DNA of 64,000 nt from an uncultured Granulosicoccaceae bacterium (lineage in GTDB: Bacteria > Pseudomonadota > Gammaproteobacteria > Granulosicoccales > Granulosicoccaceae): positions 62,001 to 126,000 of the forward strand of contig CALAJN010000011.1 in NCBI GenBank assembly GCA_937922675.1. The letters are read 5' to 3'. Of the stretch, positions 8,461 to 49,794 are shown one piece after another. Below the pieces are notes generated by a model. That model was not told where the DNA came from. It did no database searches and was given only the letters and a program-made list of their open reading frames with translations. Each line of letters starts with the position of its first letter. The first letter of the stretch is position 1. The position numbers and the translations under genes are program-made.

Positions 8461-9372
8461 TCAATCGATGGTTTCCGGGCATGGCGATAGATTTTTCCTG
8501 GCGTCCTCTGGCATGGATAGCCGCTGCGCCAGTCGTTCCTGTTGGGCGTCGCGTGTCGCGACCTCCTGATGCCGATCACGCCGGACCGCGCCTTGTCGAT
8601 ACACACGATATTTGTCGCGGTAGGTGGCAAAGGCCTGTAAGGCTTGATCCTGTGTGAGGCGATTGCCTTCGATCAGCCACGCCAGAGCGTCCAGCCGGAA
8701 GCCATCCATGGCCGGGAAGCGCCTGGAGAGCTGGTCTGGGTGCCCGCCGTGTTTTTCGAGCAAGGGTTCGTCAACCAGCAAAACGGGCTCGCGCGCGGTG
8801 ATGGCTAGCCACAGCGCGTAGTCCTCACAGGCTGGTAGACGCTCGTCAAAGCCACCGAGCTCCAACAGCAGGGTGCGCTCGATCAGAGCGGAGGAGGGGG
8901 AGATTGCGCACAGCGGCAGACTCGCGGCGAAGGCGTCGCCGTTGGGTTTGGCGTGCCGTTTGCCCGGATTCACACGTCGGCCATTGCGTATCCAGTGCTC
9001 GTCGGTATGGCAGAACCTGTGCCCTGGCTGAGCCTGCAGCGCCTGGCATTGGCGGTCAAGTTTTTCTGGATACCAGCGATCATCCGAATCCAGCAAGGCA
9101 ATCCAGTGCCCGCTAGCTTTCTGAATACCGGCATTACGCGCCGCCGAAATTCCCCGGTTGTCCTGACGAATGACACGTACTTCTGGCCAATTTTTCATCA
9201 CATGCTCCGCGGTGCCGTCGGTGGACCCGTCATCGATGACGATCACCTCTTCGGGCATCCGCGTCTGCGCAAATATCGACGCAAGAGCGTGGTCCAGGTA
9301 CTCACGGCGTTGCCAGGTCGGCACCAGGGCTGTGATTGTTGTTGCCGTGTTCTGTGTGGATTGCTCGATCAG
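8461..9372 (-). CDS. Glycosyltransferase family 2
   Basis: A GT-A glycosyltransferase that transfers a sugar from a nucleotide donor, acting at the cytoplasmic face. It has the family start ITALVPTWQRR, then VIVIDDGSTDGT, the DRGIS-AARNAG acceptor loop (here DNRGISAARNAG), the metal-binding DSDD, and a downstream ED in CEDYALW. The first strand (ITALVPTW) lies upstream of the only GTG (9324); no ATG, GTG or TTG precedes it before the in-frame stop at 9385-9387. CTG at 9372 (or ATC at 9369) overlaps the TGA of the preceding gene and would give a full-length 303-residue protein. A start at 9324 would lose the first beta strand. Confidence 0.88.
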   Translation of the reverse strand: MIEQSTQNTATTITALVPTWQRREYLDHALASIFAQTRMPEEVIVIDDGSTDGTAEHVMKNWPEVRVIRQDNRGISAARNAGIQKASGHWIALLDSDDRWYPEKLDRQCQALQAQPGHRFCHTDEHWIRNGRRVNPGKRHAKPNGDAFAASLPLCAISPSSALIERTLLLELGGFDERLPACEDYALWLAITAREPVLLVDEPLLEKHGGHPDQLSRRFPAMDGFRLDALAWLIEGNRLTQDQALQAFATYRDKYRVYRQGAVRRDRHQEVATRDAQQERLAQRLSMPEDARKNLSPCPETID

Positions 9373-16951: not shown

Positions 16952-17219
16952 GTTTGGATCTCCAAGTGGTTCACACGCCAGTGGACATGGCGTTGTGGGA
17001 AGTGACCACCGGAATCAGAGCGTTGCCCTGCGCCGGTGATCTGATCTCGTGGCCCGGTCAAGGACACACGACCCTCAAAGCGTCGCACTCAGAGGCCTGC
17101 CATGTCAATCATGCAGGCACAGGTTTGGTTAGCTCACGGCACAAATTTAGTTTGGGTCCAATCGACAGCGCTTGGCTTTCGACGTGGGGCGAGAGCCGGT
17201 AGTCATCGCTGGAATGTGA

Positions 17220-18635
17220 TCAGCTTCTCATAAATCCCAGGTTGCGAGAGCTGAAGTTGCCCAGGGTCGGCAAGACCGTGTCAATCCGCTGGTCATCGAG
17301 TCCGAGCCAATCCAAAAGTGTGGCGGCGTATTGGGTGGCGGCCAGTGAGGGTAAAACACGACCGTTTTGTACCGAATCCTGACCATCGATGTCCATCACC
17401 GGCAGGCTGCCGTAGATCTCGCCGCCTTGCACCGCACCGCCCATCGCGAGCATATGGTTACCCCAACCGTGGTCGGTGCCGTCTCCGTTGCTTGTCAGTG
17501 TGCGACCAAAGTCGGATGCGGTAAATGTGGTGACGTTTTCTGCGAGTCCGTACTGGTCCATGGCGCTCTGAAATCCCGCCAGGGCGCTGGTGAGTGACGC
17601 GATCAGTTCCGGCATTTCCTTGTTCTGGTTGTCGTGGACATCAAATCCACCCATGCCGACATAAAAGATCTGGCGGCTCATGCCGAGCTCGGCGTGCACC
17701 GAAATGAGCTTTGCCACCATGTTCAATCGAGCGGCCAGCGTGTCCTCAGAAGGATCATGCGGTACCGGCTCGTTTGTACCCTCGCCAAAGCGTGCCGCCA
17801 ACAGGGCGCCGAGTTCGGTGGTGTTCTCACGAGCGCGGGATTGCAGGTCTACATACGCCCGCTCAAACACGTGTCGCCGTTCGAGTCCCATCACGCGATC
17901 AAAAGCGTCGGCACGCGGGCGCTGCCAGTTTGATGACAGATCCAGGCCGTTGTGCGTCAGCACGCCGCTCTCACGCACGGTAAACGGTTGTTGTCCAATA
18001 CCGCTCTGCCAGTAGTTGGCGCCGGCGACCGAAATAGAGGTCAGGTAGTCGCGTGATTGGCCAGGAGCGAGATAGTCCGCTGCCAACGCACCCCAACCGC
18101 TGCGCGCGCGATCAGAGCCCTGCAGTTGCTGCCATTGAATGGCCTGGTCTGAATGAGAAAACAATTGCGCAGGCAAGTTGACCGCACCCGCCTCATAGGC
18201 GTCCCGTGTTGTCGGCTCCACCAGATTGCCGACATTGGCAATCATGGCGAGGCGTCCTTCATCGAACAAGGGGCTCAGTGGCGAGGCTGCACTGTGTAGC
18301 CCCGCGCTATCACCGTTGCCCAGACCCGAGCCAGAACGTGGCACCAGATCAAGAAGTTGGGATCGCGGCACGGCCAGGGTTCCGCGGGAGCGTTGATAGG
18401 CTGCGTATTCAGCGGTGCCCGTGGGTACCATCAAGCTGAAGCCGTCCATGCCGCCTTGCAAGAACACGCAGACCAATGCGCGGTAGTCACCCGCGCCGCC
18501 AGTGTCGATACTGCCGTCTTGGGCATGCGCCAGCGTTAGTAGCGGATTGGCACCTAATGCAAGTCCAGCCCCTGTGATTGTCTGGGCGCCGAGACCGAGA
18601 AAACGTCGTCGTTGTCGGTTATTCATGGTTGTCAT
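17220..18635 (-). CDS. DUF1501 domain protein, Tat-exported
   Basis: A 471-residue DUF1501 protein; this family lies in the alkaline-phosphatase/sulfatase-like superfamily and its activity is not established. It starts with a Tat signal (NNRQRRRFLGLG, then a hydrophobic stretch), so it is probably exported folded by the Tat system. Family signs: FLQGGMDGFSLMVP near 58-71, GGFDVHDNQ near 320, TASDFGRTL and DHGWGNHMLAMGG in the C-terminal half. ATG 18635 gives a clean twin-arginine leader; a frame open to 18761 would run into the DUF1800 gene. The DUF1800 gene lies 34 bp upstream on the same strand. Confidence 0.92.
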   Translation of the reverse strand: MTTMNNRQRRRFLGLGAQTITGAGLALGANPLLTLAHAQDGSIDTGGAGDYRALVCVFLQGGMDGFSLMVPTGTAEYAAYQRSRGTLAVPRSQLLDLVPRSGSGLGNGDSAGLHSAASPLSPLFDEGRLAMIANVGNLVEPTTRDAYEAGAVNLPAQLFSHSDQAIQWQQLQGSDRARSGWGALAADYLAPGQSRDYLTSISVAGANYWQSGIGQQPFTVRESGVLTHNGLDLSSNWQRPRADAFDRVMGLERRHVFERAYVDLQSRARENTTELGALLAARFGEGTNEPVPHDPSEDTLAARLNMVAKLISVHAELGMSRQIFYVGMGGFDVHDNQNKEMPELIASLTSALAGFQSAMDQYGLAENVTTFTASDFGRTLTSNGDGTDHGWGNHMLAMGGAVQGGEIYGSLPVMDIDGQDSVQNGRVLPSLAATQYAATLLDWLGLDDQRIDTVLPTLGNFSSRNLGFMRS

Positions 18636-23508: not shown

Positions 23509-23537
23509 GGCCTCCTGTGTGATTGGTAGGATGGGGG

Positions 23538-24935
23538 ATGCTCAATGTTCTTCCCATCATCTGGCAACGCCAGATCGCCCTTGCTGCGTGTTTGGCGGCG
23601 CTCATCCTGCCTGCACACAAGGTCTTTGCACAGCAACGCGATGTGCTGAGCGAGTGCATGGCCTTGTCGACGCAGGATGATGATATCCACGTGTGTCTGG
23701 ACAATTTTCTCGACGCCATGGACGACAGCCTGATGGATGTCACCGACTACATCAGGGATGAATTCTCTGGCGAGTCGCTGGCTGCCTTTGAGCGCTCACA
23801 GGCCGCGTTTGAGACTTTTCGACGTGAAAACTGTTTGTGGTATGTCGAATTCAGCTCACCCAGGTCCGCAGCTGAACAGATTGGCAAGAACTGCCTGGCT
23901 CGCTCTTCCTCAGAACGCTTTGAAGAGTTGCAGCAGCTGTTGACTCGCGGTCAGACACCGGCTCCGGTGCTTGCCGGATTCTATGTCTATGGCGCGACTC
24001 GCAACAGCTTCCAGCCCTGTGGAAGTGAGTCGCGTTATCTGGTCGTCGGCGATGCGAACATGGTTGGTGACCTGCAGCTTCGCTATAGCGCCTTGGCATC
24101 GGTGGATCTGCAAATCTTGTTTGCCAGCGTGACCGGCGTCATCGACGAGTCGGTGGATGGGGGGGCTGACCACGCCGGTGTTGTCAATGTGGACTCTGTG
24201 GTGGATGTGCGTATGCCGAGCGAATCGGACTGCACACGACCCTTTGCGTCAACGGCTTCGAGCGAGTCCGTTCAGATGCGCAGTGCGGCTGACACAAGCC
24301 TTGCGACGCGTGTTGCCGAGGCCGCACGACGTGAAGGCCTGGAAGTGGACGACGCCAGTGCAGAGGATTCCTTGCAAGCGGTACAGCGCGTCAATCCGGT
24401 TGCAGATCCGAGTTCATCGATTATCGTTGCCGAGCAGGCCGGCGCCGCTACAACGGGGATTGTCGACACTCAAGTTGGCGGGGATCGCTTGACCGCCTAT
24501 TTCGGTGCCTGGCTCGCTGACTGCTCGGTATTCGATGGCGTGCGCCAGTGCCTGCTGGTGGTCGACATGGATGGTAGTGACCTGACACCGAAGCTGCTTG
24601 TCTATCAAGTCCAGGATGGACCGACCACGGTTGAGCTCAGGCTGCCAGACAGAGAGCTTGCGTCGGCCGATCAGATTCTCTGGGGTATTGATGGTTACTT
24701 GCTTGGCGGGGTAACAGGATCCGAGCTGGTGGTCACTGATCAACTGACGCTGCAGCGCATCAGCGACCGTCGGTTTGTGAACGAAGAGTTGTTGCCCTTG
24801 ATGCGCAAGGGCACAGATCTGCGCGTCGAGATCGGTAGTGCTGCCGATGGTGGGGCGGGGCAGTACCGCGCAACCTTGCTTGGTCTGACGCGCGCGCTCA
24901 ATTTTGCCAGTGATTTTCTGGAGGGGGGCAGCTGA
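23538..24935 (+). CDS. Exported LprI-like / IalB-like fusion protein
   Basis: A 465-residue exported protein, signal peptide about 1-30. Residues about 33-125 match the LprI (DUF1311) lysozyme-inhibitor-like domain: paired Cys (ECMAL, HVCLD), AFERSQAAFETFRRENC and KNCLARSSSERFEEL. A middle beta domain contains a G-x-Y-x-x-G ... F-Q-P-C pattern seen in NlpE/HslJ-type envelope proteins. The last 145 residues resemble IalB (GAWLADC, CLLVV, then LLPLMRKGTDLRVEIG). ATG 23538 has AGGA nine bases upstream; a TTG at 23523 is in frame. Divergent from the BON/OmpA gene and overlapping thiN by four bases. Confidence 0.78.
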   Translation: MLNVLPIIWQRQIALAACLAALILPAHKVFAQQRDVLSECMALSTQDDDIHVCLDNFLDAMDDSLMDVTDYIRDEFSGESLAAFERSQAAFETFRRENCLWYVEFSSPRSAAEQIGKNCLARSSSERFEELQQLLTRGQTPAPVLAGFYVYGATRNSFQPCGSESRYLVVGDANMVGDLQLRYSALASVDLQILFASVTGVIDESVDGGADHAGVVNVDSVVDVRMPSESDCTRPFASTASSESVQMRSAADTSLATRVAEAARREGLEVDDASAEDSLQAVQRVNPVADPSSSIIVAEQAGAATTGIVDTQVGGDRLTAYFGAWLADCSVFDGVRQCLLVVDMDGSDLTPKLLVYQVQDGPTTVELRLPDRELASADQILWGIDGYLLGGVTGSELVVTDQLTLQRISDRRFVNEELLPLMRKGTDLRVEIGSAADGGAGQYRATLLGLTRALNFASDFLEGGS

Positions 24936-25597
24936 GCCAGCTTGCGTCATTGGTATTTGCCGCGGGTGAGTCGCCACCCGATTTGACCAGATTGCTCGAT
25001 GCTGCGACGCTCGCCTCCGCTCGGGTGATCTGCGCTGACGGTGGTTTGTCCAACTGTCTGGGTGCGGGTTTTGTGCCGGATTGTGTGATTGGAGATTTTG
25101 ACAGCATCGATGTGCGGCATCTCGATCAGGCAGCCTTGCGAACAGTCCAGCGTATTGCCCATCCCAAGCGTAAGAACGCAAGCGATCTTGAGCTTGCGCT
25201 CGAGCACCTTGCCAGCGAGTCGCCGGTGCCGGATGTCGTGGTTGTTGTCGGCGTGAGCGGTGGACGTAGTGATCACCACCTGTTCAACTGGTTGCTGCCA
25301 ATGATCGGTTCGTGGCCATTTAATCTACGGCTCATTGATCGCACAGTTGATGCTCATCTGATAACAGGTGAGCGTCCATGCAAGATTCCCTGTCGCGTCG
25401 GTGACACGGTCAGTCTTTTGCCACTGGGCGATGTGCAGGGCGTATCGACAGACGGTCTTGAATACTCCCTGGCCAACGAAGATCTGATGGCCGGGCGTAC
25501 GCTTGGGTTGTCCAATGTCGCAACGACGTCGCAACCATGCATTGAGGTATGCCGTGGGCAGTTACTCGCTATGCGTGTGTTGGATCAAGTTCCATAG
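24932..25597 (+). CDS. thiN: Thiamine pyrophosphokinase
   Basis: Thiamine diphosphokinase makes thiamine diphosphate from thiamine and ATP in the cytoplasm. Domain signs: LVFAAGE (strand 1), ICADGGLSN near 34-42, DCVIGDFDSI near 50-59, KNASDLELAL near 83-92 and GVSGGRSDHHLFN near 108-120, all of the TPK catalytic domain; the C-terminal thiamine-binding beta domain has VGDTVSLLPLG and EYSLANEDL. The only canonical start codon is TTG 24950, which lies inside the first strand. CTG 24932, overlapping the previous TGA, has GGAGG seven bases upstream and gives the full 221-residue protein. Confidence 0.9.
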   Translation: MSQLASLVFAAGESPPDLTRLLDAATLASARVICADGGLSNCLGAGFVPDCVIGDFDSIDVRHLDQAALRTVQRIAHPKRKNASDLELALEHLASESPVPDVVVVVGVSGGRSDHHLFNWLLPMIGSWPFNLRLIDRTVDAHLITGERPCKIPCRVGDTVSLLPLGDVQGVSTDGLEYSLANEDLMAGRTLGLSNVATTSQPCIEVCRGQLLAMRVLDQVP

Positions 25598-27181: not shown

Positions 27182-27817
27182 TCAGAATTGCAAGCGCCCG
27201 TCGACAACGCGCAGCTCGTTAGCACCGATGGCAGTGACGTCGTCTTCATCGTGCGTGACCATCAATACGCAAGGTGCGTGATGGGCGATCAGCTCACGTG
27301 TCAGCGCCAGCATATCTGCACGTGTTCGACCATCGAGTGCACCAAAGGGCTCATCCAGTAGCAGCACGGGTCGCGCTCTGAGTAGACAGCGAGCCAACCC
27401 CACTCGCTGGCGCTCACCACCTGACAGAGACGTCGGTTTGCGTCTGCCAAAGCCTGCCAGCCCCACGTTTTCAAGCACGTCTTCGACTGCCGCATGCTGT
27501 TCGGGATCAAGTCGGAGTCGAGGGTCGAGTCCCAAGGCGATATTGTTTGCAACACTCATGTGTGCAAAGAGGTTGTCGCTCTGGAACAGCGTGGTGACCG
27601 GTCGCTTGTGCGGAGCTTGCCCGTCGAGGGTGTTGTTGTTCCAGATCACATGGCCGGATGTCTGTTCGGTATAACCGCCAATGACGTTGAGCAGGGTGCT
27701 TTTGCCAGAGCCACTAGCACCTAGTACGGCATGTATTGCATGCGTTGGAAACTGCCCATCGAACACCCACCGACGGTTGCCAAGAGACACTGCGACCTGG
27801 TCAAGTTGCAGGCTCAT
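27182..27817 (-). CDS. thiQ: Thiamine ABC transporter ATPase
   Basis: A 211-residue ATP-binding subunit of the thiamine/thiamine-diphosphate importer ThiBPQ. Walker A GASGSGKSTLLN near 32-43, the Q-loop LFQSDNLFAHM near 78-88, signature LSGGERQRVGLAR near 128-140, Walker B VLLLDEPFGALD near 147-158 and H-loop VTHDEDD near 187 are all seen. Its ATG overlaps the thiP stop by four bases (ATGA), so translation is coupled. Expression follows the TPP riboswitch at 30.6 kb. Confidence 0.94.
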   Translation of the reverse strand: MSLQLDQVAVSLGNRRWVFDGQFPTHAIHAVLGASGSGKSTLLNVIGGYTEQTSGHVIWNNNTLDGQAPHKRPVTTLFQSDNLFAHMSVANNIALGLDPRLRLDPEQHAAVEDVLENVGLAGFGRRKPTSLSGGERQRVGLARCLLRARPVLLLDEPFGALDGRTRADMLALTRELIAHHAPCVLMVTHDEDDVTAIGANELRVVDGRLQF

Positions 27818-29454
27818 GACGTGGGCCGCGTGCTGCCACCAACAACGCGGACGATTATCAGATAAATGATCAGGCAGGTCGCTATCAGCAAGCTGGCTGT
27901 CGCTGCAGCCTCATCCAGTCGGTGGCTACCCAGGCGCGTATGCAATAACAGGGGGAGCGTCTGCATACGTTCCGAGCCAAACAAGGCGATGGCACCGAGA
28001 TCACCTGCAGCCAGAGTGGCGGCGATGGCTGAGGCTTGAGCAATGGGTCGTCGTAGCAGAGGCAGATCGACATGCCTCCAACGTGTCCAGCGCGGCATGC
28101 CAATCGAGTTTGCGAGGCGGTCACGTGCGACTGCGCCATCCAGAACAGGACCAGACAGCAAGCGCAAGGCAAAGGGCAGCCCCATCAAGGCATTGACCAG
28201 AATGACCAGTAGCAAGGCAAGCGCAAACACGTTGACGTGATTGCGTAATAGCAGGAATAAACCAGTACCCAGTACGACAGGAGGCAGTATCAATATCGCG
28301 TTGCCAATCATCTGTAGCACATTGCCAGTTCGAGCCAGGCGAAGACGCACGTGCAGGTGGCGTACACCCGATAGAAGGCACAGTGCGAGAATGAGCGCAA
28401 GACTTGCAGCTGCCAGTGCCGCAATCACGGTGTTGGCAAGCGCTGCAAGAGTTGTGCTGTCGGTGAGTACAGATAGCAGTCGCGCGTTGAACCCGGAGAC
28501 CATCAGCGCAACGATAGGCGGTACCACCAAAGCGATCATGCCTGCGATAAGTAGTCGATCCATCCATCGATGGTGCGATGTTCGGCCATTGTGTGGGTGC
28601 CACTGGGGCCAGTGGTTATGCTGTACATCATCTCCGGCTAGACCCAGGCCGGTATCGTTGCCTTTGCCGAATAATCCGCCAGTCAGTGTCAGTGCCAGAC
28701 AGACCGAAAGCTGAACCATCGCTAGTGCCACGGCCAGCGGCAGATCAAAATCGAAGCGCAGGGCCTGATAGATCGCAACCTCCAGGGTTGTGGCACGAGG
28801 CCCACCACCCAAAGCCAACACGACGGCAAAGCTGGTAAAGCACAAGGTGAACACAAGGCTTGCAAGACCCGGTAAATGCCGGGCAATCACAGGCCATTCG
28901 AGTTGCCAAAAACGTGTGCTGGCTGGCAGGCCAAGTTGTGCGGCGAGGCGCCACTCGGTGTGCGGTATGTCATCCAGAGCCTGTAGCAACACACGTGTTA
29001 TCAACGGCGCATTGAAGAACACGTGCGCTAGCAGAATACCGAACAGACCGTAGAGCACCGGTACGCGCAGTGACAAGCCGGCTGCGTCGAGCAGCTGATT
29101 GATCCATCCGGCACTTCCCCAGACAGCGATCAGCCCGAAAACGGCAGCGATCGAAGGTAGTACCAGGGATAAGCCAAACAAGGTTGTCAACACATGGCGA
29201 CCGGGAAAGCACCTTTCATGGTGAAGCGCGGTGGCGACCGGTATCGCCATCGCAAGGGCGAGTACTGTGGACAAAGCCGCTTGCGCAAGGCTGAAGCGCA
29301 GCACACGCAACAGCCATGGGTCCTGCACAAGCGTGAGCCAAGGTAGTGCGCCCGCCTCGCTGATCAGCCGTAGCGCTGGAGCGCCGACCAATGCGATGAC
29401 CGTCGTGGTGGCAAAGGTTGGCCCCAGCCACCACGGAAGGCTGTCCAGTCTCAT
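27814..29454 (-). CDS. thiP: Thiamine ABC transporter permease
   Basis: A 546-residue permease with the two-domain layout of ThiP: about 12 membrane segments and two binding-protein-dependent permease (EAA) loops, seen near ALDDIPHTEWRLAAQLGLPAS and near LANSIGMPRWTRWRHVDLP. It carries thiamine compounds across the inner membrane with ThiB and ThiQ. It follows thiB by 27 bp and overlaps thiQ by 4 bp. Confidence 0.94.
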   Translation of the reverse strand: MRLDSLPWWLGPTFATTTVIALVGAPALRLISEAGALPWLTLVQDPWLLRVLRFSLAQAALSTVLALAMAIPVATALHHERCFPGRHVLTTLFGLSLVLPSIAAVFGLIAVWGSAGWINQLLDAAGLSLRVPVLYGLFGILLAHVFFNAPLITRVLLQALDDIPHTEWRLAAQLGLPASTRFWQLEWPVIARHLPGLASLVFTLCFTSFAVVLALGGGPRATTLEVAIYQALRFDFDLPLAVALAMVQLSVCLALTLTGGLFGKGNDTGLGLAGDDVQHNHWPQWHPHNGRTSHHRWMDRLLIAGMIALVVPPIVALMVSGFNARLLSVLTDSTTLAALANTVIAALAAASLALILALCLLSGVRHLHVRLRLARTGNVLQMIGNAILILPPVVLGTGLFLLLRNHVNVFALALLLVILVNALMGLPFALRLLSGPVLDGAVARDRLANSIGMPRWTRWRHVDLPLLRRPIAQASAIAATLAAGDLGAIALFGSERMQTLPLLLHTRLGSHRLDEAAATASLLIATCLIIYLIIVRVVGGSTRPTS

Positions 29455-29481: not shown

Positions 29482-30504
29482 TCAGCGTGTTGAAGCTTCG
29501 AGCCATTCATCGACCCAGGCCTTGCGCTGATCACGCACTTCTGCCGGATCAAACAGCAGTGTCTCATTCGGCTCAATCAAGCGAGAAAAGGCGTCCGGAA
29601 GCGCATCGCCCAGATCCGCCACTGGATACATCACGTTGCCAAGCGGAATGGAGGCCTGTGCCTGCGGTGACACCAGAAACGCCAGAAACTCTGCCGCGAG
29701 TTCTGGCTCATCACTGGCGGCAAGGCGTGCGGCGACCTCCACCTGCAGGTAGTGCCCTTCCTCGAAGGCGGCCGCCTGATAGCGCTCCGTCCCGTCGACT
29801 TCGATGTGATAGGCAGGGGAGGTGGAGTACGACAAAACCAGGGGTGCCTCTTCATTGAGGAACATACTGAAGTAGGCCTCGCTCCACCCCTTGGTCGTTG
29901 CCAGTATGCGTGGTTGCAGATCCGCCCAGCGCTCTTTCGCTTCATCACCAAATACGTATTTCATCCATAACAGGAATCCCAATCCCGGTGTACTGGAACG
30001 AGGGTCCTGCAAGATGATCTTGGGTCCGTCCGGGTCTGCGACCAGTTCAGCCAGGCTGGCAGGCGGTGTGTCGAGTTTTTCCGTGTCGTAGACAAAGGCG
30101 AAGTAGCCATAGTCGTAGGGCACGAAAGTGTCTGATGCCCATTCGATCGGCAGCGTCAAGCCGCTGGTGTCCACACCGGACGGTGCAAGTAGCCCGGTGT
30201 CCTCGGCAATAGCCATGAGATTGGTATCAAGCCCAAGCACGACGTCAGCGTCGCTGCTGTCACCTTCCAACTGCACACGATTGAGGATGCCGGCGGAGCT
30301 GTCTAGTGCCACGAATTCAATATCGCAGTCGTCGCACGTGGCTTCAAAGGCCTTTTCAATAGCGGGGCCCGGGCCCCATTCGGCAACAAAGGACTCGTAG
30401 GTGTAGATCGTGAGTCTGCGGGTTTCAGCGTGTGCGCCGACACTGGTAGCAAGCAGCACGAGCGTGCTGGCCGCAAGAGGCAGGGGGCGAGTGAGGAGGG
30501 TCAT
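29482..30504 (-). CDS. thiB: Thiamine-binding periplasmic protein
   Basis: A 340-residue periplasmic receptor for thiamine and its phosphates, with a signal peptide to about residue 26 (LPLAASTLVLLATSVGAHA). Typical ThiB segments: LTIYTYESF, WGPGPAIEKAFE, ADVVLGLDTNL, FVPYDYGYFAFVYD, and PGLGFLLWM. ATG 30504 is chosen: AGGA is about eight bases upstream and the signal peptide follows directly; a longer frame to 30594 would run through the riboswitch terminator. Controlled by the upstream TPP riboswitch. Confidence 0.94.
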   Translation of the reverse strand: MTLLTRPLPLAASTLVLLATSVGAHAETRRLTIYTYESFVAEWGPGPAIEKAFEATCDDCDIEFVALDSSAGILNRVQLEGDSSDADVVLGLDTNLMAIAEDTGLLAPSGVDTSGLTLPIEWASDTFVPYDYGYFAFVYDTEKLDTPPASLAELVADPDGPKIILQDPRSSTPGLGFLLWMKYVFGDEAKERWADLQPRILATTKGWSEAYFSMFLNEEAPLVLSYSTSPAYHIEVDGTERYQAAAFEEGHYLQVEVAARLAASDEPELAAEFLAFLVSPQAQASIPLGNVMYPVADLGDALPDAFSRLIEPNETLLFDPAEVRDQRKAWVDEWLEASTR

Positions 30505-30528: not shown

Positions 30529-30590
30529 AAAACGCTGAGCGCCGCGCAGGCGGACGCTCGCACAGGGATGACCGCGCGGGGCGCTCAGGC
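30529..30590 (-). terminator. Putative riboswitch terminator hairpin
   Basis: In the minus-strand direction, TGAGCGCCCCGCGC pairs with the near-complementary GCGCGGCGCTCA about 25 bases later, then GCGTTTTCC follows. It lies between the TPP aptamer and thiB, where an expression-platform terminator would be. The T-run is only four long, so efficiency is uncertain. Confidence 0.55.
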
Positions 30591-30591
30591 T

Positions 30592-30690
30592 CAATTCCTA
30601 CGCCGGTGCTAACCGGATCAGGTTCGCGGGTTGTCGCAGCGCAGGTGATCTGCGGCGACTCTCAGCCCGGTAGTCGGGCACCCCGTTGAG
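30592..30690 (-). promoter_or_regulatory. TPP riboswitch (THI element)
   Basis: Read on the minus strand, the aptamer shows the fixed blocks ACGGGGTGCC, GCTGAGA, ACCC (variable stem before it), then GAACCTGATCCGGTTA and GCACCGGCGTAGGAA. These are the conserved thi-box sequences that bind thiamine diphosphate. It precedes thiBPQ, so uptake falls when thiamine diphosphate is plentiful. Confidence 0.95.
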
Positions 30691-30809
30691 TCATCCATAA
30701 TTGGCGATCAGGGAAGATCACCACTGACCCTATGGTGACGCTGGCAGCGCACAAGTGCAAGTGCCTTGCAGTTGTTCCAGTTGCGACCGTGTGGTGCGCC
30801 GGTATGTGT

Positions 30810-47862: not shown

Positions 47863-49794
47863 TCAATTGCCACCAGCCAGCGATTCAAGTTCATCCCAGC
47901 GCGCGTACAGCCGCTCCAGTTCAGCCTGAACAAGCTTGCTTTTTTCAAGTGTTGCCGCTGATACTTTTTCATTGTCAAAAAAGCCATCGGCATTGATAGC
48001 GTCGTTGATTTCTGCCTGTTCACTCTCACACTTCGCTATGTCTTCGGGCAACTGTTCAAGTTCACGAGCCAGCTTGTAACTGAGTTTGTTGCCTGTTGCG
48101 AGCGGTTGTGTCGCCGCGCTTTTGCTCGTTCCCTGTTGCCGTTTGGAGTCGCTTTCAGTGCTGCTCGCTGGCAGGTCTGTAAAGGGGTCGTTTAAAGTGG
48201 GGTTGGACTGACGTTCTCTTGTAAAGTCTTCCCATCCTCCAGCTACTTCAATAAAGCGTCCCTGACCTTGATAGACAAGACTCCGAGTCACGCTGTTCTC
48301 CAACAAGGCTCGGTCGTGACTGATCAGGATGACGGTGCCCGGATACTCGCCAATCATGTGTTCGAGTAGCTCCAGCGTTTCGATATCAAGATCGTTGCTG
48401 GGCTCATCGAGTATCAGTACATTGGATGGCTTGGCAAACAGGCGAGCCAGCACCAGACGTCCAAGCTCACCGCCGGACAGGGCCGTGATCGGGCCACGTG
48501 CACGGGCAGGCTGAAACAGGAAATCCTGCAGGTAACTCATGATGTGGCGTTCGCCGCCATTGAGGGTGACCATGTCACGCCCACCGCTGACGTTGTCTGC
48601 AGCACTCTTGCGAGGGTCCAGCACATCGCGGTGCTGATCAAGGTAGGCCACTTGTAATTCGGTACCTTCCTTGACGCTGCCGTGAGTCGGTGTCAGCTCA
48701 CCCAGCAGAAGTTTGACGAGTGTTGACTTGCCACAACCGTTCGGCCCAATCAAGCCAATTCGGTCCCCACGTTGTACCAGTAGATCTAGTGGGGCAACGA
48801 TAGTCTTGCCATCTGCCTCAAAGCCTATTGCCTCCGCTTCGAGCACCCGCTTGCCGGATTTGTTGGCGATGTTCGCGGTGAGTCTGGCGGTGCCTTGTGC
48901 ATCGCGTCGGGATTTGCGTACCTCGCGCAGTTTTTCAAGCGCTCGTACGCGCCCTTCATTGCGGGTGCGGCGGGCCTTGATGCCTTGCCGTATCCAGACC
49001 TCTTCACGCGCGAGTTCCTTGTCAGCCTCTGCAAAGGCTGTGGCCTCGGCTTCAAGTGCCTCGCGTTTGAGCTCACGATAACGTGCATAGTCACCCGGCC
49101 ATTCAGAGACTCGTCCACGATCGATCTCGATAATGCGTGTAGCAACACGATCGAGAAAGGCTCTGTCATGTGTCACGAGGAGCACTGCGCAAGACAGGCT
49201 TGCAATGGTTTCTTCAAGTTCGGAAACAGCGCCAATGTCCAGGTGGTTGGTTGGCTCATCGAGCAGCAGGATGTCTGGATTGGCGACAAGTGCGCGTGCC
49301 AGTAGTACGCGCCTTTTCATGCCGCCAGACAGCGGCGCAACCTGCGTATCCGCGTTCAGACCGAGTCTGGTCAATGTTCGATCAACTTCGTTGGCAAGGG
49401 ACCAACCGTCCACGGCATCGATGCGGTCTTGCAGTCGGCCGAGATGGTCTGCGACATCCTTGCCTGCCACAAGATCTGCGGTTGTCGCGTGATAGTCGGC
49501 GAGCAATTTGCCGGTGTCATCGAGGCCATTGGCCACAACCGAGTACACATCGCCGTGCAGATCTCGTGGCACCGCTTGTGGCATCGCAGCGACGCTTAGT
49601 CCGTTGCTGCGCACGATCTCGCCGCTGTCCGGTTGCAGGCTTCCAGCAACGAGTTTGAGCAGCGTTGACTTGCCCTCGCCATTGCGGCCAACCAGCGCCG
49701 CGCGATCACCACGTTCGATGGAGACGTTAGCGCCGTCGAGAAGAGGGGTCGCACCGAAGGCAATGCGAACGTTACTGAGCCGAATGAGGCTGAT
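47863..49794 (-). CDS. uup: ABC-F ATPase Uup
   Basis: A 643-residue ABC-F protein with two ATPase domains that acts on DNA or ribosomes, not as a transporter. First domain: LIRLSNVRIAFG start, Walker A GRNGEGKSTLLK, LSGGMKRRVLLAR, LLLDEPTNHLD. Second domain: GPNGCGKSTLVK, LSGGELGRLVLAR, LILDEPSNDLD. The tail carries the coiled coil typical of Uup. Only GTG 49614 is canonical, and it would delete the first Walker A. The frame is open upstream to TGA 49813-49815, and ATC 49794 aligns with the usual start, with GGAG ten bases upstream. Confidence 0.9.
   Translation of the reverse strand: MSLIRLSNVRIAFGATPLLDGANVSIERGDRAALVGRNGEGKSTLLKLVAGSLQPDSGEIVRSNGLSVAAMPQAVPRDLHGDVYSVVANGLDDTGKLLADYHATTADLVAGKDVADHLGRLQDRIDAVDGWSLANEVDRTLTRLGLNADTQVAPLSGGMKRRVLLARALVANPDILLLDEPTNHLDIGAVSELEETIASLSCAVLLVTHDRAFLDRVATRIIEIDRGRVSEWPGDYARYRELKREALEAEATAFAEADKELAREEVWIRQGIKARRTRNEGRVRALEKLREVRKSRRDAQGTARLTANIANKSGKRVLEAEAIGFEADGKTIVAPLDLLVQRGDRIGLIGPNGCGKSTLVKLLLGELTPTHGSVKEGTELQVAYLDQHRDVLDPRKSAADNVSGGRDMVTLNGGERHIMSYLQDFLFQPARARGPITALSGGELGRLVLARLFAKPSNVLILDEPSNDLDIETLELLEHMIGEYPGTVILISHDRALLENSVTRSLVYQGQGRFIEVAGGWEDFTRERQSNPTLNDPFTDLPASSTESDSKRQQGTSKSAATQPLATGNKLSYKLARELEQLPEDIAKCESEQAEINDAINADGFFDNEKVSAATLEKSKLVQAELERLYARWDELESLAGGN

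Follow-up and report, generated by a model that had tools for sequence, protein, structure and literature searches.

A CUG codon in a stop-start overlap as the probable translation start of thiN in an uncultured Granulosicoccaceae bacterium

The gene thiN of an uncultured Granulosicoccaceae bacterium is, with high probability, translated from CUG 24932 by coupled reinitiation, the initiator tRNA reading CUG as methionine. This reading is based on the anatomy of the start region, on the start position conserved in relatives and on the poor fit of the first canonical codon of the frame, TTG 24950. A CTG start of thiN had been proposed in a preliminary description of the sequence, and the relatives' starts, the position of the first beta strand and the ribosome site agree with it. 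All positions refer to the window, i.e. the whole stretch of 64,000 nucleotides analysed, unless a locus (L) is given; the window belongs to a genome of 3.63 Mb (20 contigs, 100% complete).

The ORF ending at 25597 was identified as thiN with TIGR01378 (126.8 bits, curated cut-off 76.4), and the catalytic and thiamine-binding domains are present (PF04263, 69.8 bits; PF04265, 39.1 bits; both above cut-off). It is the single thiN match in the genome. Kinase activity on thiamine is suggested by the family and by a neighbourhood containing thiBPQ and a TPP riboswitch (Table 1). For thiL, neither this genome nor any of the 27 genus genomes gave a match above cut-off, and thiC and thiE gave no match in this genome. 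Of 14 control genomes, 9, 13 and 11 exceeded the cut-off in the thiL, thiC and thiE searches, respectively. With these three genes apparently missing, thiN is expected to account for all TPP made inside the cell and is probably needed. Judged by its gene content, the genome looks like that of a thiamine importer that depends on ThiN for its TPP; uptake of ready-made TPP may be an alternative supply. The apparent thiamine auxotrophy would be served by thiBPQ and thiN, and the lack of a thiL match above cut-off is common to the genus (27/27 genomes).

The thiN frame is closed upstream by an in-frame TGA at 24911, and its codons from 24914 onwards read TTT TCT GGA GGG GGG CAG CTG AGC CAG CTT GCG TCA TTG. 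CTG 24932-24934 is the sole NTG codon of this frame between the stop and TTG 24950, and no AUG, GUG or UUG is found in frame before the conserved N-terminus. The CTG shares four bases with the preceding ORF, whose TGA occupies 24933-24935, and follows the GGAGG after a spacer of 7 nt, the G run extending to 24928. The preliminary description had named the stop, the lone CTG, the four-base overlap and a strong ribosome site seven bases upstream, all of which were recovered by reading the codons and by the duplex energy given below.

Table 1. Features of the thiN start region, the thiamine import locus and two further genes with proposed near-cognate starts in the window
Feature	Position	Strand	Evidence or remark
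Family 2 glycosyltransferase, proposed CTG start 9372-9370 in CTGA overlap	8461..9372	-	overlap conserved in G003
Preceding LprI-like gene (putative start)	23523..24935	+	PF07007, 27.3 bits
TGA closing the thiN frame upstream	24911..24913	+	
Shine-Dalgarno core GGAGG, 7 nt before CTG	24920..24924	+	
CTGA, thiN CTG start over TGA of preceding gene	24932..24935	+	GTGA at the same place in G015 (L021)
thiN CDS from CTG, 221 codons plus TAG	24932..25597	+	TIGR01378, PF04263, PF04265
TTG, first canonical codon of the thiN frame, rejected as main start	24950..24952	+	in the middle of strand 1, no ribosome site
thiQ-like, importer ATPase	27182..27817	-	best NCBIfam match TIGR01277, 204.9 bits, below cut-off 245.05
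thiP, importer permease	27814..29454	-	TIGR01253, 426 bits, cut-off 395.1
thiB, importer thiamine-binding protein (putative start)	29482..30504	-	TIGR01276, 385.5 bits, above cut-off
TPP riboswitch preceding thiBPQ	30578..30695	-	RF00059, 67.2 bits, gathering threshold 54.3
uup-type ABC-F gene, proposed ATC start 49794-49792	47863..49794	-	

Using an assumed anti-Shine-Dalgarno sequence (16S 3' end assumed), the duplex energy at CTG 24932 was -11.7 kcal/mol, which is stronger than at all 165 confident ATG starts sampled in the genome; of the internal in-frame CTG codons in the sample (n = 3449), 0.29% attain this value. For TTG 24950 the value was -1.9 kcal/mol, equalled or beaten by 70% of the 165 ATG starts. 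If translation nevertheless began at this TTG, the protein would start with MVFAAG and be a few residues shorter than in relatives. The codon is canonical and the first such codon in the thiN frame, and the TIGR01378 model begins approximately at its residue (the Phe encoded two codons after the TTG corresponds to model position 3), so that this form would lose little of the model coverage. The six codons from CTG to TTG are without coding bias (score -0.9, home-made hexamer script), which likewise speaks for TTG and against CTG. However, besides the weak ribosome site, the structure disagrees: in the AlphaFold2 model of ThiN (mean pLDDT 94.5), strand 1 comprises residues 5-9 counted from CTG and TTG 24950 encodes residue 7, i.e. 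it lies within the first strand, as had been supposed, and strand 1 would lose two of its five residues.

Of 56 other genomes searched, 35 gave a ThiN match; the loci of 29 of these were read and six were left out. The most downstream ATG, GTG or TTG before the residue aligned with TTG 24950 was taken as the start. In all 29 relatives a canonical start lies 4 to 21 residues before this residue, thus at least four upstream, and none begins inside the LVFAAG strand, the observation that the preliminary description had set against its own proposal. The relatives carry Leu, Trp, Val or Ile as a strand residue at the TTG position; at the preceding position, at least 90% of the aligned sequences have Ala, and this genome has Ser. 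A start at TTG 24950 is therefore considered unlikely. For CTG 24932, a canonical start exactly at this codon, which had been anticipated for relatives, was found in five of them (GTG in L019, L021, L023 and L026; ATG in L020). In G015 (L021), GTGAGC takes the place of CTGAGC, the same upstream gene is overlapped and the same six codons lead to the strand. The LprI-like C-terminal motif adjoins thiN in 22 of the 29 relatives. In G003, the nearest relative with 56% identity, the overlap reads TTGA and the N-terminus of ThiN is longer by six codons. The closest named ThiN matches are MAGs titled uncultured Granulosicoccaceae and Granulosicoccus.

A sequence G-GGG-GGC (24920-24929) is located six bases before the stop-overlap codon of the upstream gene and was judged not functional. 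A -1 slippage at this place before the stop would produce an LprI-like::ThiN fusion with no separate start of thiN; read in the upstream frame, the six G plus C do form a heptamer of the type X-XXY-YYZ, from which a -1 shift would lead into the thiN frame. This explanation is hardly credible, as the upstream protein begins with an apparent secretion signal (by eye) and a cytoplasmic kinase would be exported as part of the fusion. In addition, the relatives have canonical starts and have not kept the G run, and the other CUGA genes are without such a heptamer before their stop (by eye).

Conserved genes lacking ATG, GTG and TTG before their N-terminal motif were searched by coding bias and by relatives among 683 ORFs, called with the home-made hexamer script in a sample of 864 kb (24% of the genome); the homology screen was low-powered, with 184 own, 190 G003 and 52 G023 comparable ORFs. 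Besides thiN, six such genes were found in this sample: uup, nadD, truA, gluQ, rlmL and the glycosyltransferase, and three of them (truA, gluQ and the glycosyltransferase) have a CTGA overlap as in thiN. A prfB-like ORF of G003 was flagged, as is to be expected for a gene with the +1 frameshift of prfB, and this indicates that the screen is functional. A HAD-like and a LysM-like ORF also picked up by the coding screen were not convincing and were left out.

The ATC of uup corresponds to M1 of E. coli Uup and to position 1 of PRK11147. In 23 genus loci holding the N-terminus this codon is ATG (18), GTG (3) or ATC (this genome and G003), and in G003 an additional ATG precedes the ATC of uup by 16 codons. 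In nadD (L057, 7909-7911, + strand), an ATC is found 7 nt after a perfect GGAGGT and before the catalytic motif GGTFDPIHFGH; G003 has ATG, and G020 (L173) is likewise without a canonical start before the motif. The truA gene shares a CTGA with the preceding frame (fimV-like by eye); the same CTGA occurs in G003, and neither genome has a canonical start before the conserved domain. In rlmL (L069, open frame from 18279, - strand), no canonical start precedes the ARGLE motif, and CTG, ATC or ATT are possible starts. Near-cognate starts of infC are classic, and infC of this genome, fetched separately, has ATC after GGAGG. In the G003 sample (945 ORFs), truA, the glycosyltransferase and a candidate response regulator are start-less; in the response-regulator-like ORF (L224, - strand, open frame at strand coordinates 1306-2062), VLLVEDEE is not preceded by a canonical start. 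The G023 sample (290 ORFs) gave no convincing start-less gene. An ABC permease ORF of G023 (L089, - strand, open frame 17162-17921 in strand coordinates), in which the N-terminal part is missing, is probably a broken gene and not a case of an unusual start.

These genes also bear on the explanation that the C at 24932 arose in sequencing or assembly and that the true codon is GTG, ATG or TTG. Six consecutive G precede the site and G015 has GTG at that place, both of which would suit an error. Yet a substitution three bases past a G run is not the usual type of error, the start-less uup with its ATC and the CTGA of truA and of the glycosyltransferase recur in the separately assembled G003, and isolated errors would not cluster at start codons. 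We regard an error as very improbable.

CTGA overlaps were counted in 43 of the 683 called ORFs, and in the first sample of 464 kb TGA was most often preceded by C (115 of 248 TGA-ending ORFs). Because these overlaps are common by chance, a point against the CTG start of thiN, their bare count was not used as evidence. Fifteen own CTGA overlaps had no upstream canonical codon and a distance of at least 5 codons to the first downstream one. Four were accepted; for the other 11, judged from translations and mostly without a homologue, downstream starts were plausible or undecided. The four CTGA cases among seven start-less genes correspond to p = 0.0005, thiN being included though chosen for its CTGA; without thiN, CTGA is present in 3 of 6 genes (p about 0.004, hand arithmetic). 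A genome-wide count of GGAGG-spacer-CTGA (76 + 67 sites on the two strands; reversed control 34 + 27) was uninformative on starts and was discarded.

For gluQ, which overlaps dksA by CTGA, the 21 codons before the GRFAP motif were inspected in 25 genomes having this motif. Five genomes (this genome, G003, G024, G018 and G009) have no canonical codon within this range, and in G021 the only one is a GTG directly before GRFAP; gluQ of G003 and G024 also has canonical codons further upstream, inside dksA. An in-frame CTGA from the dksA TGA is present in all six genomes without a usable canonical start. Among the other 19, in 2 of which the dksA end was unrecognised, the dksA CTGA lies within 21 codons in three (G012, G023 and G014). 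For the association of CTGA with the start-less state, Fisher's exact test gave p = 0.0005 (not corrected for kinship). G012, G023 and G014 have TTG, ATG and GTG, respectively, at one shared codon, which is CTG in G024. From their sequences, these six start-less genomes look like two or three lineages (this genome/G003, G018/G024 and G009/G021), and a CTGA start seems to be needed for gluQ in 6 of the 25 genus genomes.

For the Granulosicoccaceae lineage as a whole, we tentatively propose, at somewhat below even chances, that CUGA is a regular stop-start word, that CUG is the sole start of thiN, truA, gluQ and the glycosyltransferase and AUC that of uup and nadD, and that about 1% of the genes are without a canonical start and are cut short by standard annotation; this rate of about 1% refers to genomes sampled within one family. 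If this is true, Uup, NadD and TruA would be annotated too short in Granulosicoccaceae genomes and their catalytic motifs lost. The widely used gene finder Prodigal is described as considering only ATG, GTG and TTG, so that CTG starts are excluded by design (PMC2848648). Alone, thiN would be a new example of a known rarity; CUGA and AUC starts recurring in conserved genes of one lineage are the more interesting result. If a probably needed enzyme has only a CUG start and CUGA recurs in the genus, stop-start coupling may lift the discrimination against CUG.

For thiN, we infer CUG initiation, coupling and methionine as first residue by the following mechanism. For a ribosome ending the LprI-like gene at UGA 24933-24935, the upstream GGAGG would act as an anchor that keeps the overlapping CUG in or beside the P site, and the ribosome would reinitiate in the -1 frame. 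CUG 24932, read as methionine by the initiator tRNA, would yield M-SQLAS-LVFAAG. Direct initiation by fresh 30S subunits at the strong site of thiN may occur as well. The duplex energies of the accepted CUGA cases other than thiN are -3.0 (glycosyltransferase), -2.2 (gluQ) and -0.7 kcal/mol (truA). Because the CUGA cases, thiN with its -11.7 kcal/mol included, share the overlap and not the ribosome site, reinitiation by the terminating ribosome is favoured over independent initiation. By this reading, thiN would use both coupling and independent initiation, and truA, gluQ and the glycosyltransferase, having no strong ribosome site, would depend on coupling alone. The AUC genes form a second class, with a strong ribosome site in nadD (-10.7) and a moderate one in uup (-5.8). 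An altered initiation apparatus was sought and none was found: inspected by eye, IF3 looks normal, and the three G-C pairs and the anticodon CAT are present in the initiator tRNA (L114:9023-9099). Ordinary IF3 and initiator tRNA, i.e. no visible relaxed-start machinery, speak against a CTG start. Reinitiation is reported to be inhibited by excess IF3, less so with a Shine-Dalgarno sequence present (PMC2268962).

A CTG start also has to be weighed against the poor performance of CUG where it was measured. In a mycobacterial reporter selection, CUG made up 0.03% and was not enriched, whereas ATT was (PMC4633059). An N-terminal study of E. coli lists 628 ATG, 50 GTG, 10 TTG and no CUG among 688 annotated starts, and one ATC among upstream sites (PMC13245402). 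E. coli tRNA-fMet is described as inefficient at CUG starts (PMC11497404). Among the top-ranked literature matches, a scope mostly outside subscription papers, CUGA stop-start coupling was not treated as a class in any title or abstract.

Compared with known systems, ThiN is like the thiamine diphosphokinase family TIGR01378 in family score and conserved motifs, and only the start codon differs. The AUU of infC is a near-cognate bacterial start. The essential Borrelia enzyme PncA is reported to start at AUU (PMC13398362), and in Salmonella CUG accounts for 4 of 26 new N-terminal proteoforms (PMC11005335). With all three, thiN has in common that a functional gene is without an AUG, GUG or UUG start; the likeness to Borrelia pncA extends to an essential metabolic enzyme with a database entry cut short (PMC13398362). 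Unlike the Salmonella CUG cases, described as alternative proteoforms, the thiN CUG is the only plausible start of the main protein and is part of a stop-start overlap. ATGA/GTGA is described as the commonest short overlap in prokaryotes, and termination-reinitiation is established there (PMC10666635); the main text of that paper has no occurrence of CTG, CUG or TTGA. Like these NUGA overlaps (trpBA type), thiN shows a four-base stop/start overlap of tandem genes in the -1 frame, but its start is CUG and not AUG, GUG or UUG, so that it would work like the class and be a variant of it.
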